Source: Clostridia bacterium (GTDB lineage Bacteria > Bacillota > Clostridia > Oscillospirales > Feifaniaceae). From it: 32,152 nucleotides of DNA. Position numbers and translations under genes: made by a program. This document shows positions 23,655 through 30,973 of this stretch, one piece after another; position 1 is the stretch's first letter; each line of letters begins with the position of its first letter. The DNA is taken from positions 1 to 32,152 of the forward strand of contig JAFRSP010000047.1 of the NCBI GenBank assembly GCA_017427525.1. The letters are read 5' to 3'. The notes below the pieces were generated by a model. The model was not told the origin of the DNA, searched no databases, and saw only the letters and a program-made list of their open reading frames with translations.

Positions 23655-26600
23655 TCAGGTCGCGCGCAGATGGATCCGCCGCTCCACATCGTTGACGTCG
23701 ATCCGCAAGATCTTGGAAACGCCCTGCTCCTGCATGGTGATCCCATACAACACGTCTGCCATCTCCATGACGCCGCGGCGATGTGTGACAAGAATCAGCT
23801 GGGTCTTTTCCGTGAAGCGCTTGTAGTAGTTTGCAAGGCGCACCACGTTGACCTCGTCGAGCGCCGTGTCGATCTCGTCAAGAATGACAAAGGGCGACGG
23901 ATGCACGCGGAGGATCGCAAAATAAAGGGCGATAGCGGTCAGAGCCTGCTCCCCGCCCGAGAGCGCCGAGAGATTGTTGATGATCTTACCCGGCGGCTGA
24001 ACCCGCAGCTCGATATTCGACTCCAGCACATCGGAGGGATCCGAGAGGGAAAGACTTGCCGTGCCGCCTCCGAAGAGATCTGAAAAAATCTGCTTGAAGT
24101 GGCTCTCGATCACCCGGAACTGCTCTCTGAAGATGGTCTGCATCTCGGCGGTGAGCTGCGCGATCAGCTTCTCCAACTCTGCCTTGGAGACCTCCAGATC
24201 TCCGACCTGCGCCGTATAATAGTCGAATTGCTCTTTGACGGTTTTGTATTCCTCAATGGCGTCGACATTGACATGGCCGAGCGCCTTGATGGCATGCTTA
24301 AGCTCTGCGATCCGTTTTTGCGCCGCGGCCCGATCCGGCATGGGGGTGCGAAGCTCGAGCGCCATCGAGGCGGTAAGCTCGTATTCATCCCAGAGAGCGC
24401 CGATCAGGGCGTCGCGCTCGGCCTCCACCTGCGCCTTCTGCGCTTCGCAGCGCATCTGCTCTTTCACCAGTCCCTCCCGCTGTTCGGCAAGGGCGCGCTC
24501 CTGCGTGCGCAGGGAAACCTGTGTGCGCTCGGCAGCATCCCGCTCTTCGGAAAGCCGCGCCATCTGCTCAAGCCTTTGGGCAGCCTGCCGCTCATAACCG
24601 AGCGCGCCTTCCCGCAGAGAGGCAAGCTCTTGATCGAGCCGTTCCCGATCCTGCACAAGCGCCTGCCGCTCGGTTTCCAGCCGGTCGCGGTCGAGCCCCT
24701 GCAGAGCGAGCAGCTCTGCCGTTTCCCGCCTCGACTCCTCCAGCGCGCTTGCATCCCGCTCGCAGGCGGTCAGCGCCAGGCGAAGCTCGGAAGAGCGGCG
24801 CATCAGCGCGTTGAGCGCCTCTGACTGCTCCTCATAACTCTGTTCAAGCTCGGAGAGAAGCTTTGCCTCCTCTTCCTGCCGGAGCTGGAGCTCACTTTGC
24901 TGACGTTTTACCTTTTCCAGAGACTCTAGGGCCTCGTTTTGTCCTTCTTGGGCGCGATCCCGCCTGAGGAAGAGCGCCTCGCGGCTGCGCAGCAACAGCT
25001 CAAGCGCCGCCTGTGCGCTGCTCAGCTCGCCGAGCAAACGGATCTGCTCTTCTCTTGCCGTCTGACGTTCGGCCTGTGCTCCCTGCGACTCGGCCAACAC
25101 CTTCGCCGCCTCCTGCTGCGCCGCCTTGACACGGACGGCTGCCGCCTCTTCCTCCGCCTGCTCGTCCGCCGCCTGCTTGGCCAGCGCCTCGATCTCGCCG
25201 CGCCTGGAAAGCATACCTGCTCCCCGCACGGCCGAACCGCCGGTGAGAGATCCCCCCACGTTGACCAGCTGCCCGTCCAGCGTGACGATGCGGAAGCGGT
25301 AGCGGTGCTGCTTTGCAAGGGCGATGGCATGGTCGATCTCGCGCACCACAAGCGTTCTCCCGAGCTGGGCGTCGATCAGCGGGCGATACCGCTCGTCACA
25401 GGAGACGAGCTCGGCCGCGCTGCCCACGATGCCTTCGCCCTCCCGCGGCGGGGTCTCGCCGTCGCGGCGCTGCACCGCCGAAAGGGGCAGGAAGGTCGCG
25501 CGCCCGGCATTTCTCGCCTTGAGCATCGCAATCGCAGCCTTCGCCTGCTGCTCGGTATCGACCACAAGATATTGCAAGGCTCCGCCCAGCGCCGTTTCAA
25601 TGGCAAGGGCGTAGCGTTTTTCCGTTTCAATCAGAGAGGAGACGGCGCCGTGAACGCCGGCCAGCCTGCCGAGCTGCTTCTCTTTGAGGATCAGCTTGAC
25701 GGCGCCCGAGAATCCCTCAAGATTCTGCTCGAGTTCCTTGAGCGCATGCAGGCGCTGCTCGGTCTGCATCCGCTTGCGGGTCAGATCCTCCAGGGCCTGG
25801 CGCTCCTCCTGAAGCCGCTGCATCCGCACGGCATGCTTTTTCTCGTAGCCGCCGACGGAATTTTCAGCGCGCTGCAGGATCTCTTCCTGCCGCTTTAACA
25901 GCGCTTCGGTCTCGGAAAGGCACTGCTGCGCGAGGGATATCTCTTTTTCCAGCGCCGCAAGTTCGGTCTCGACCTGGGTTTCCTCTTCTTTCTTTGCGGC
26001 GAGCGCGGTCTCACAGTTCGCCGCTTCCGCACGATTGCGGCCGAGCGCATCGAGCAGGTCGAACTGCTCCGTCCGCTTGCGCACGATGGTTTGCTCCGCC
26101 TCTTTGAGAGATCCGTCTTCGGCCTGCAAGAGCAGCTGCTCCATCTGCTGCCGAAGCGCGGAGCCCTGCTCCGTGAGCCGCTTCTGATCTTCGGCCATCT
26201 GCGCGTCGCGGGCCTGCAGCGCCAGAAGCCGCTCTTTCGACAGGGCCGCGCTTTCCACCAGCGACTCCTGCCGCTGACGGTTGTGTGCAAGCTCGTTTTC
26301 GGTCACGGCGGCCTCGCTTCTCGCCTGCGCCGCCTGCTGCTCGAGCTCTCTTTGACTGCGCAGCGCCTCATCCGTTTCCAAATTGATCTGGGAGACCCGC
26401 TCTGCAAGATGGTCGAGCTCCTGTTCGACGTCCTGCTGCCGCAGGGTCAGCTCTTCCAGCTGACTGGTTGCGATCAGATAATTGTCCTGCCAGCGCGAGA
26501 TCCGATCCTTGGTCTGATCCAGCTGCTCCAGCCAGACGTCGATCTCCAGCGCCTTTTTCTCTTCCCTGTAATCAAGATACTTTCTTGCCTTTTCAGACTG

Positions 26601-27221
26601 CTGCTTCAGGGGTCCCACCCGCTGCGCATAGCCGTTTTGAATTTCACGCAGACGGATGAGATTGTCCTCCGTCGCCTCCAGACGGCGCTGGGACTCGTTG
26701 CGGCGGTAACGGAATTTGGAGATGCCCGCCGCTTCCTCAAAAATGGCGCGGCGATCCTCGCTCCGGTTGGACAGCACCTCTGCAATTTTACCCTGACCGA
26801 TCAGAGAATACCCATCTCTGCCGATTCCCGTGTTCATAAAGAGCTCGTGGATATCGCGAAGGCGCACGCTGCGCCCCGCCATCAGATATTCGCTCTCACC
26901 CGAGCGATAGAGCCTGCGCGTGACCCGCAGTTCCGTGAGGGGCGTGGGCAGCTCTCCGTCGGCATTGTCGATCACCAGGGAGACCTCCGCCATGCCGACA
27001 GCCCTCCGGCCCTGTGTACCGGAGAAAATCACATCTTCCATTTTGCCGCCGCGCAGCGTTTTGCTGCTCTGTTCGCCGAGCACCCAGCGCACCGCATCGA
27101 CCACGTTGCTCTTTCCGCTTCCGTTGGGGCCGACGATGGCAATGATGCCGCTGTCGAAATTGATTTCCACCCTGTCCGGGAAGGATTTAAAGCCGTTGAT
27201 CTCCACCGACTTGAGCCTCAC
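23655..27221 (-). CDS. smc: Chromosome segregation protein SMC, GTG start
   Basis: SMC dimers with ScpA/ScpB extrude and organise chromosomal DNA. The 1188-residue protein starts MRLKSVEINGFKSFPDRVEI. It has Walker A GPNGSGKSN (31-39), a long coiled coil, and a hinge region around residues 510-660 (GVHGAVSSLIETEKRYALAIETALGGALQYLVV). The return coil leads to the ABC signature LSGGEQALTA (about 1087) and Walker B FVILDEIDTALDEVN. The start is GTG at 27221, seven bases after AAAGGGGGGAG; the frame is open to 27281 but without another ribosome binding site. Its own promoter lies at 27286-27314, so smc heads the operon running to leuS. ScpA/B are elsewhere. Confidence 0.98.
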   Translation of the reverse strand: MRLKSVEINGFKSFPDRVEINFDSGIIAIVGPNGSGKSNVVDAVRWVLGEQSSKTLRGGKMEDVIFSGTQGRRAVGMAEVSLVIDNADGELPTPLTELRVTRRLYRSGESEYLMAGRSVRLRDIHELFMNTGIGRDGYSLIGQGKIAEVLSNRSEDRRAIFEEAAGISKFRYRRNESQRRLEATEDNLIRLREIQNGYAQRVGPLKQQSEKARKYLDYREEKKALEIDVWLEQLDQTKDRISRWQDNYLIATSQLEELTLRQQDVEQELDHLAERVSQINLETDEALRSQRELEQQAAQARSEAAVTENELAHNRQRQESLVESAALSKERLLALQARDAQMAEDQKRLTEQGSALRQQMEQLLLQAEDGSLKEAEQTIVRKRTEQFDLLDALGRNRAEAANCETALAAKKEEETQVETELAALEKEISLAQQCLSETEALLKRQEEILQRAENSVGGYEKKHAVRMQRLQEERQALEDLTRKRMQTEQRLHALKELEQNLEGFSGAVKLILKEKQLGRLAGVHGAVSSLIETEKRYALAIETALGGALQYLVVDTEQQAKAAIAMLKARNAGRATFLPLSAVQRRDGETPPREGEGIVGSAAELVSCDERYRPLIDAQLGRTLVVREIDHAIALAKQHRYRFRIVTLDGQLVNVGGSLTGGSAVRGAGMLSRRGEIEALAKQAADEQAEEEAAAVRVKAAQQEAAKVLAESQGAQAERQTAREEQIRLLGELSSAQAALELLLRSREALFLRRDRAQEGQNEALESLEKVKRQQSELQLRQEEEAKLLSELEQSYEEQSEALNALMRRSSELRLALTACERDASALEESRRETAELLALQGLDRDRLETERQALVQDRERLDQELASLREGALGYERQAAQRLEQMARLSEERDAAERTQVSLRTQERALAEQREGLVKEQMRCEAQKAQVEAERDALIGALWDEYELTASMALELRTPMPDRAAAQKRIAELKHAIKALGHVNVDAIEEYKTVKEQFDYYTAQVGDLEVSKAELEKLIAQLTAEMQTIFREQFRVIESHFKQIFSDLFGGGTASLSLSDPSDVLESNIELRVQPPGKIINNLSALSGGEQALTAIALYFAILRVHPSPFVILDEIDTALDEVNVVRLANYYKRFTEKTQLILVTHRRGVMEMADVLYGITMQEQGVSKILRIDVNDVERRIHLRAT

Positions 27222-27285
27222 TGTCTGTCTCCCCCCTTTACAAACGCGTTTTGTCGCCGTTTCTCTCATACGGCATAACATTTTT

Positions 27286-27392: not shown

Positions 27393-27421
27393 TTGCCCGC
27401 GCCGATGCGGTATGGTATACT
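27393..27421 (+). promoter_or_regulatory. Promoter of the alpha/beta hydrolase gene
   Basis: TTGCCC (27393-27398), exactly 17 bases, then TATACT (27416-27421) preceded by TGG (extended -10). The ATG lies about 50 bases after the -10. It is back to back with the smc promoter. Confidence 0.75.
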
Positions 27422-27473
27422 TGCGTCGGACCGCAAAGCGGGAAAACACCTATGTTGGAAGGAGGCCTGCCGT

Positions 27474-28277
27474 ATGCCGCGCCGTATCGAAACCATCCGG
27501 CACAAACGCTTTGTTATGGAGGCCTTTCGTTTCGGGGAGCAAGGCAGAGAACCCATCGTTTTGCTCCCGGGACTCAGCGTGGGGAGCGTGCTGGCCTATG
27601 CCGACGCAATTGCCGACGCCTATCGGATCTTCGCAGAGGAGTTTGAGATCTTTGTGCTGGATCGGCGTCTGGATCTTCCTCCCTCTTACTCGGTGTGGGA
27701 CATGGCAGACGATACGGCGGACGCCATAGCTCTGCTCGGGATCCAGGCTGCCAACCTATATGGTGTCTCACAGGGAGGCATGATCGCACAGGCAATCGCT
27801 CTTCGCCATCCGGAGCTGGTAAAGAGGATGATGTTGGGCTCCACCGCCGCACGGCTGAGCGCCGCTGCAAAGGAACTCTTGCAGACCTGGGTTCGACTGG
27901 CACGGGAGGGAGACGCAAAAGGGCTCATAGACGCCTTTTGCGAGGCGGTGTATTCCGAGGCCTTCTATCTCCAAAACCGCGACGCCCTTCTTTCTATGGC
28001 AAACGGTATCACACAGAAAGACCTCTCCCGCTTTCTAATCCTTGCAGAGCAGACGGCGGACTTCAACTGCTACGAGGATCTGTCCCGCATCACCTGCCCC
28101 GTTTTGGTGCAGGGGGCCGGAAAAGACCGTGTGCTGGGGCGGGAAGCCTCGGTGGAACTCGCACACAAACTGGGCTGCATGCTCTGCCTGCACGAGGATT
28201 GCGGACACGCCGCCTATGACGAAGCGCCCGACTTCAAGGTGCTATCTTACCGGTTTTTCAAGGGGGACCCGATCTGA
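27474..28277 (+). CDS. Alpha/beta hydrolase, substrate unknown
   Basis: A cytoplasmic 267-residue alpha/beta-hydrolase-fold protein with no signal peptide. The nucleophile elbow is GVSQGG with Ser99. The acid is likely Asp218 in GAGKDRVLG, and the base His245 in EDCGHAAYDE. The oxyanion region reads LLPGLSVGS, with Pro where many members have His. A cap region (about 125-200) is present. Esterase, lipase-like or C-C bond hydrolase activities are all possible; the sequence does not decide. AAGGAGG stands eight bases before the ATG at 27474. It is the only plus-strand gene among minus-strand core genes, interrupts the usual rnc-smc neighbourhood, and has its own promoter and terminators. Confidence 0.88.
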   Translation: MPRRIETIRHKRFVMEAFRFGEQGREPIVLLPGLSVGSVLAYADAIADAYRIFAEEFEIFVLDRRLDLPPSYSVWDMADDTADAIALLGIQAANLYGVSQGGMIAQAIALRHPELVKRMMLGSTAARLSAAAKELLQTWVRLAREGDAKGLIDAFCEAVYSEAFYLQNRDALLSMANGITQKDLSRFLILAEQTADFNCYEDLSRITCPVLVQGAGKDRVLGREASVELAHKLGCMLCLHEDCGHAAYDEAPDFKVLSYRFFKGDPI

Positions 28278-28325: not shown

Positions 28326-28377
28326 ACCGTTTCCCGCTTTTCCGCTTTCATCCTGCATTCTGAAACAAAAAAACAAG

Positions 28378-28408
28378 CGGCGCAGTTTCCATTATAGAAA
28401 CTGCGCCG
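28378..28408. terminator. Bidirectional terminator between the hydrolase gene and rnc
   Basis: 12-bp perfect stem (28378-28389 and 28397-28408) with a 7-base loop. Plus strand is followed by TTCTTTTTATT; minus strand by CTTGTTTTTTT. It can stop both convergent transcripts and is the main terminator of acpP-rnc. Confidence 0.92.
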
Positions 28409-28414
28409 TTCTTT

Positions 28415-29128
28415 TTATTCGAATTCATCCTGCCCCATCAGGCGGAGCGCGGCCCGCGCCGCCTGCTGCTCGGCTTCCTTCTTGCTGCGTCCGCTCCCCC
28501 TGGCAACGGGGTTGGAGTTGAGATAAACCTCCACCTCAAACACCTTGTCGTGATCGGGCCCGTGGGAGGCCACCAGCTGATAGGAGAGCTGCTCCTCCTT
28601 GTTTTTCTGCACGATCTCCTGCAGCACTGTTTTGTAATCGCGGAAACAGCGCCCCTCGATCGCCAAAGCCACGGCTGGCTCCACATAGGGCATGAGAAAG
28701 GCGGCGGCCGTTTCCAGCCCCCCGTCGAGATACAGTGCGGCAATCAGCGCCTCAAAGGCGTCTGCCAGAATCGAATCGCGGTCTCTTCCGTGATTCTGCT
28801 CCTCGCCGCGCCCCATACGCAAAAATCCGCCGAGACCCAGCTTTCTTGCAAACCCAGCCAGCGATCGTTCACAGACCACGGTGGCCCTCACCTTGGAGAG
28901 ATCCCCCTCCGGCAGTGAGGTGTAATGGGTGAAAATATACTGGGAAACCACGACCGAGAGCACCGAATCCCCGAGAAACTCGAGCCGCTCATTGTAAACC
29001 ACGCGGTGCGGTTTTTGTTCATTTGCATAGGAAGAATGGGTCAAAGCCGCAGTCAGTACGTCCTGATTCTGAAAGCTATAGCCAATTCTCCGCTCCAGCT
29101 CTCTTTTGTCTGTTCCGAATCCCGACAT
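28415..29128 (-). CDS. rnc: Ribonuclease III
   Basis: RNase III cuts double-stranded RNA, including rRNA precursors. The 237-residue protein carries the catalytic signature ERLEFLGDSV at 47-56 and a second acidic cluster in ILADAFEALIAALYLDGG. The C-terminal dsRNA-binding domain (about 156-230) contains YQLVASHGPDHDKVFEVEVYLN and GSGRSKKEAEQQAARAAL. GGGGAGGAG precedes the ATG at 29128. It follows acpP by 18 bases, the usual Firmicutes pair. The normal next gene, smc, is displaced by the inverted hydrolase gene. Confidence 0.97.
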   Translation of the reverse strand: MSGFGTDKRELERRIGYSFQNQDVLTAALTHSSYANEQKPHRVVYNERLEFLGDSVLSVVVSQYIFTHYTSLPEGDLSKVRATVVCERSLAGFARKLGLGGFLRMGRGEEQNHGRDRDSILADAFEALIAALYLDGGLETAAAFLMPYVEPAVALAIEGRCFRDYKTVLQEIVQKNKEEQLSYQLVASHGPDHDKVFEVEVYLNSNPVARGSGRSKKEAEQQAARAALRLMGQDEFE

Positions 29129-29146: not shown

Positions 29147-29368
29147 TTACACTTCCTCGGCCAGCTGCGCAAGGTCCCCCAAGGTTGCAACGCGCTCCAG
29201 CTCTTCATCGGGCAGCTGAACGCCGAGCTCGGCCTCCAGCGCCATCACAAGCTCCACCACGTCGATCGGGTCCGCCCCGATATCGTCGAACCGGGTGTCG
29301 GCCTCCAGGTCACCATACTCCAGATTGAGCTGCTCCACAAGCAGCTCCTTGATTTGCTCCAGGATCAA
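29147..29368 (-). CDS. acpP: Acyl carrier protein homologue lacking the phosphopantetheine serine
   Basis: A 73-residue acidic four-helix protein of acyl carrier size and pattern: MILEQIKELLVEQLNL, then ADTRFDDIGADP-IDVVELVMALEAE, then LPDEELERVATLGDLAQLAEE. In functional carriers the helix-II start reads GADS(L/I)D and the Ser carries 4'-phosphopantetheine. Here codon 34 is CCG (Pro) at 29269-29267. Reversion of one base would give TCG (Ser). Everything else in the helix-II recognition region is intact. It may be a non-functional or regulatory ACP, a decaying copy, or a base-call error; another ACP may exist in a fab cluster. The start is TTG at 29368 behind AGAGGTGAG; no in-frame ATG is available before helix II, and an in-frame TGA lies four codons upstream. 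Confidence 0.85.
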   Translation of the reverse strand: MILEQIKELLVEQLNLEYGDLEADTRFDDIGADPIDVVELVMALEAELGVQLPDEELERVATLGDLAQLAEEV

Positions 29369-29515: not shown

Positions 29516-29544
29516 ATCATACTCAGGAAGCAGGCTATTGTCAA
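29516..29544 (-). promoter_or_regulatory. Near-consensus promoter of acpP-rnc
   Basis: Minus strand TTGACA (29544-29539), 17 bases, TATGAT (29521-29516). Transcription would begin about 140 bases before the acpP TTG. The leader contains a small hairpin around 29459-29480. No FapR-like operator was recognised. Confidence 0.88.

Positions 29545-29635: not shown

Positions 29636-30973
<1,338 letters not shown>

Follow-up and report, generated by a model that had tools for sequence, protein, structure and literature searches.

A candidate phosphopantetheine-independent acyl carrier protein encoded beside rnc in a Clostridia genus

The acyl carrier protein (ACP) gene beside rnc in a Clostridia bacterium (Oscillospirales; Feifaniaceae) encodes proline at the position of the serine that carries phosphopantetheine (PPant), and the genus to which this genome belongs keeps the gene. 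The residue change is present in the sequence but, taken alone, amounts to a single base in a draft assembly. More weight falls on a result that is independent of Pro34, namely that the genus retains an ACP while lacking, as far as its genomes can be read, every visible means of charging it. Together with alanine at the same position in a sister genus, this genus-wide retention favors a PPant-independent role over the alternatives, with a probability that we put at roughly 0.55: the rnc-linked ACP would have become independent of PPant, as a bacterial parallel to the mitochondrial ACP of Plasmodium. The window, i.e., the whole stretch of DNA analyzed, comprises 32,152 nt (contig JAFRSP010000047.1). 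Hereafter, G000 denotes the window's genome, G001 to G003 members of the same genus, G004 a member of a sister genus in the same family, and G005 to G007 other members of the family. G000 is a draft of 74 contigs that is 93.9% complete, and the relatives' genomes are also drafts.

The gene and the elements discussed with it lie on the minus strand as follows.

29147 to 29368, minus strand: acp, 73 aa, TTG start, stop included, with Pro34 replacing the PPant serine
29267 to 29269, minus strand: codon 34 of acp, CCG (Pro); TCC (Ser) in relatives, or GCC (Ala) in G004
29225 to 29269, minus strand: helix II (residues 34 to 48), the partner-binding helix of ACPs, placed by model secondary structure and alignment
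29516 to 29544, minus strand: promoter-like site TTGACA-17-TATGAT upstream of acp, with 11 of 12 sigma-70-like matches

The 73-aa translation, (M)ILEQIKELLVEQLNLEYGDLEADTRFDDIGADPIDVVELVMALEAELGVQLPDEELERVATLGDLAQLAEEV, matched the ACP family PF00550 with 54.7 bits (E = 1.2e-14; curated cut-off, 20.8 bits) and the NCBIfam ACP models with E-values of 1e-18 to 1e-16, slightly under their curated cut-offs. In a functional acyl carrier, helix II opens with the serine of the DSL/DSI motif, where this protein has Pro34; among 34 aligned bacterial ACPs, the attachment serine was absent in the window's copy only. On the plus strand, positions 29269 to 29267 read G-G-C, and a single change, at 29269, would convert CCG into the serine codon TCG. 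The sister codons are TCC, so the window's CCG differs from them by two bases. A random base change could yield CCG, yet the site is nearly invariant elsewhere. A sequence-only reading of this DNA had described a real ACP with proline at the PPant serine (codon 34, CCG), one base at 29269 away from serine, and both points are borne out by the ORF, the PF00550 match and the predicted fold.

The near-consensus promoter and ribosome binding site reported in the same reading are also in place. Specifically, the promoter-like site, of which 0.3 were expected in shuffles, ends 148 nt upstream of the acp start, and AGGTGA is located 6 nt 5′ of the TTG. This TTG is the sole in-frame start downstream of the preceding stop codon; the same-genus genes start with ATG at the equivalent place, or nearby in G001, and the start is thus weakened from ATG to TTG in the window's species.

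The AlphaFold2 model of the protein (input, the 34-sequence alignment; mean pLDDT, 94.4) is a predicted four-helix ACP fold, for which the nearest solved structures in the PDB are apo- and holo-ACPs (TM, about 0.85 to 0.92). Pro34 is the first residue of helix II in this model, within its first turn, and the overall predicted fold is intact. Helices generally accept proline well at such a position. Further along helix II, the stretch VELVMALEA is unchanged in all five rnc-linked copies of the G000 to G004 clade.

The neighboring genes are listed below.

28415 to 29128, minus strand: rnc, ribonuclease III, downstream of acp (TIGR02191, 2.1e-78)
29636 to 30973, minus strand: trmFO, upstream of acp (NF003739, 1.3e-198)
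23655 to 27281, minus strand: smc (ORF), farther downstream in the same conserved block

The gene order trmFO-acp-rnc-smc is common to G000 to G004, which agrees with the conserved place before rnc noted from the sequence. In G005 and G007, plsX lies directly before a serine-bearing acp, followed by rnc; in G006, plsX is followed by rnc, and no acp was found between them. Since plsX is present here in G005 to G007 and absent in G000 to G004, it left the locus in the latter clade while the rnc-linked acp stayed. The proximity of acp to rnc and smc reflects old synteny and is no evidence of partnership. The start of rnc lies 18 nt past the acp stop and has its own Shine-Dalgarno sequence, GGGGGGAGGAGCGC-ATG; we also considered acp as a leader for rnc translation, which is unlikely given this strong ribosome binding site of rnc and the selection on the acp amino-acid sequence. 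A strong, bidirectional, terminator-like hairpin of 14 pairs occupies positions 28376 to 28410, immediately after rnc. Between rnc and smc, an alpha/beta hydrolase ORF (27393 to 28277) runs on the opposite (+) strand, its best family match being 3-oxoadipate enol-lactonase, below cut-off; rnc and smc are adjacent in G002 and G003.

Searches for the machinery that would make or use a charged ACP point the same way across the genus. In G000, acp was the sole PF00550 match, and an unfiltered search of all 74 contigs, in stretches, with its own profile returned acp at E = 4.8e-28 and a next best match at E = 0.12, i.e., no second ACP. The genome-wide check for a second acpP with DSL that the sequence-only reading had proposed therefore found none in G000, and its suggestion that lipid synthesis runs through a second ACP is unsupported, as the genome has neither that ACP nor type II fatty-acid synthesis (FAS II) to use one. 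PPant transferase (PF01648) had no match in G000 to G003 even at E ≤ 10, with matches in relatives, and an unfiltered own-profile search of the G000 contigs gave nothing significant (best E = 2.5). FabF (PF00109) and PlsX (PF02504) were likewise absent from G000 to G003 and found in relatives, and relatives' FabF, FabH, FabD, FabZ, AccA, AccD, PlsX and transferase proteins gave nothing significant against the 74 contigs of G000. Hence neither a PPant transferase nor the FAS II or PlsX clients of a functional acyl carrier were found in G000. Matches resembling AccC, AccB, FabG and FabK, at 32 to 47% identity, likely belong to nitronate monooxygenase-like enzymes, to short-chain dehydrogenases and to carboxylases of other kinds. 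It follows that no member of the genus is visibly able to make holo-ACP, whatever the base at 29269: the claim that this protein cannot become holo-ACP is supported by Pro34 and by the lack of a transferase match in G000 to G003 alike, and an A at 29269, which had been named as the refutation of the Pro34 observation, would undo the serine change without making the protein a carrier.

In G004, the transferase, PlsX, FabH, a second ACP, FabK, FabF and the acc genes sit on a single 21-kb contig, and such clustering makes their joint loss explicable by one deletion. One assembly gap could for the same reason mimic the loss in one genome, and four in a row are unlikely. In G006 (C80 and C67), an ACP with DSL occurs in a fab cluster with FAS II, yet PF01648 had no match, so that a single PF01648 negative is not proof. 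Elsewhere in the order, PlsX and PPant transferase without a FabF match were observed in G009, G021, G022, G027 and G028, apparently an intermediate stage in which ACP would serve external fatty acids only.

FakA (TIGR03599), FakB, PlsY and PlsC are present in G000, which fits a scavenger of external fatty acids; PlsY had no match in G003. PlsC occurs in G000 to G003 without PlsX or holo-ACP, and it measures 272 to 282 aa in the window's genus versus about 200 aa in G005 and G006. An acyl-CoA ligase-like gene of G000 might supply PlsC; AMP-binding acyl-CoA ligase had no match in G001 to G003, so this gene is not a general answer.

Comparison of the same locus in relatives, which had been proposed as a check on Pro34, found the gene in G001 to G004 but split on the residue. 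The acp genes of G001 to G003 share 70 to 81% identity with the window's and carry serine (DSI; codon TCC); the rnc-linked copy of G004 carries alanine (GCC) at the attachment site, evidence that this position is open to change within the clade, and its genome has a fab cluster with its own DSL ACP. In the ACP tree, the five rnc-linked copies (G000 to G004) formed one clade with a support of 0.987, and by parsimony serine would be ancestral, with two separate losses, one leading to G000 and the other to G004. In the smc and topA trees, G001 fell outside G004 plus the rest (support, 0.89 to 0.93), so that FAS II loss may have happened on two occasions, and its order relative to serine loss may be read in more than one way. 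We also searched for codons starting with C or G at the serine position, within the context D-x-[LIVMF]-[DE]-x-V-E-x-x-M only. Across the order (394 genomes), the true ACPs with this pattern were those of G000 and G004 only, and across the phylum (398 genomes) that of G000 only, i.e., no further serine-less ACP with such codons and context in about 790 genomes. The pattern also matched in G349, G429 and G729, where translation gave non-ACP sequences. Both replacements, Pro34 and Ala34, thus fall within the clade whose rnc locus has lost plsX.

Next to its retention at the same locus with an intact ORF in all four genus members, acp bears signs of constraint. Within the genus, dN/dS ranged from 0.11 to 0.22 for acp, compared with 0.07 to 0.16 for rnc and 0.13 to 0.16 for trmFO. 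Between the acp genes of G002 and G003 there were 15 synonymous against 7 nonsynonymous codon differences, where neutrality would predict 16 of the latter, and none of 2,000 neutral simulations gave as few nonsynonymous changes. Because both genomes are without the transferase, their divergence most likely postdates its loss; the gene was thus maintained by selection after the transferase and FAS II were gone, and acp would have been selected as an apo-protein, unless the transferase was missed in both. This key pair carries serine; Pro34 is known from one genome, and the change to proline could be very recent. A scan of genome contigs for further strains gave no near relatives, from a set in which close records may be omitted.

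Among the explanations that compete with a PPant-independent role, slow decay comes next in probability, and we regard it as unlikely. The gene would have become functionless after FAS II loss, with Pro34 and TTG as early signs and the ORF still intact only for want of time; the weakened start and the loss of serine do occur in the same species, and a ribosome binding site of its own makes rnc translation independent of acp. Against this stand the purifying selection between two species already without a transferase, the four intact ORFs, a dN/dS comparable to that of rnc and the alanine of G004, a genome in which FAS II is intact. The sequence-only reading had offered both decay and a carrier-independent role; the selection disfavors the former, which persists as a rival, and the latter is the better supported of its suggestions.

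A base or assembly error at 29269 is somewhat less probable still: the true codon would be TCG, and the protein the same apo-type ACP as in the sisters. It would need one base in a draft of 74 contigs, and all three same-genus relatives have serine, but the reading frame and the remainder of acp are clean, and G004 demonstrates change at this very site. Least probable, and to our minds improbable, is that the genus continues to use the ACP as a carrier, with an unrecognised PPant transferase acting on the sisters' serine and the window's species having lost that enzyme or using a carrier missing from the assembly. Serine retention in G001 to G003, the PF01648 miss in G006 despite its fab cluster and the incompleteness of G000 would all suit such an oversight; however, PF01648 matched nothing in the genus at E-values up to 10, and neither PlsX, FabF nor any other core FAS II gene is there to use holo-ACP.

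For the preferred reading, a PPant-independent role, the following course can be proposed. An ancestor would have possessed a fab-cluster ACP as well as a second one beside rnc, and the latter would have taken on, or kept, a role that uses the protein surface only, chiefly the acidic helix II. Loss of FAS II, PlsX and PPant transferase would then have left the rnc-linked copy as the sole ACP, under purifying selection as an apo-protein, with its attachment serine free to vary, to proline in the window's species and independently to alanine in the sister genus. Membrane lipids would probably be made from external fatty acids through FakA/FakB (acyl-phosphate), PlsY and PlsC, without acyl-ACP, and the rnc-linked ACP would most likely act through helix II on an arm-independent partner. 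The fold match, residue, gene order, absences and selection can be read from the genomes; expression of the protein, its apo state in the cell and its binding of a partner are inferred. Candidate partners are SMC, a cysteine desulfurase (by motif, G000 has two cysteine desulfurase-like ORFs), RNase III and a lipid acyltransferase. The fuller proposal, that a bacterial clade keeps the rnc-linked ACP as a dedicated non-carrier, selected for partner binding without phosphopantetheine, in cells that have no holo-ACP of any kind and build phospholipids without acyl-ACP, is tentative, and we place it just short of even odds.

Some observations weigh against the preferred reading. Although the site should be free, serine (DSI) persists in three of the four genomes without a transferase, a hint that it could still be of use in them or that the searches overlooked a transferase. 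The weakened start codon in the window's species also counts against it. By analogy with E. coli, in which the S36T substitution of AcpP abolishes binding to IscS (PMC13343975), a serine-less ACP need not keep every partner.

If the preferred reading holds, its interest lies in what it would separate. Carrier chemistry is the usual account of ACP, although its partners include SMC-like, Fe-S and stringent-response proteins as well. A lineage without the carrier chemistry but with the protein kept would have parted these two roles by nature, and the clade would offer a clean setting in which to look for what a bacterial ACP does apart from carriage. A further question is by what route acyl groups reach PlsC, for the second phospholipid acylation, in the absence of both PlsX and holo-ACP. 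In the open-access literature searched, we found no report of a serine-less bacterial ACP or of a link between ACP and RNase III.

The window's protein resembles E. coli AcpP and the rnc-linked AcpP of Firmicutes in fold, acidic helix II and place beside rnc; those proteins carry PPant on serine and serve FAS II or PlsX, whereas here serine, transferase, PlsX and FAS II are absent. Another comparable protein is the auxiliary AcpB of Enterococcus faecalis, a second ACP whose role lies outside de novo synthesis, but it is apparently an acylated carrier that works with exogenous fatty acids (PMC6509188). A role indifferent to the apo or holo form has a precedent in E. coli AcpP, whose apo-form stimulates the ATPase of the SMC-like MukB equally to holo-AcpP (PMC8602292); unlike in that system, the neighbor in the window is an ordinary smc. 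A close likeness is to the mitochondrial ACP of P. falciparum and other apicomplexans, in which FAS II and the PPant transferase are lost and the protein is kept (PMC8547962). The attachment serine is replaced by phenylalanine in Plasmodium and by cysteine or glycine in Toxoplasma (PMC8547962), and by proline here, so that in G000 the same combination of a replaced serine with loss of transferase and FAS II is found. The Plasmodium protein is organellar and essential and binds Isd11-Nfs1 (PMC8547962), whereas the window's acp is bacterial, rnc-linked and known from its sequence.
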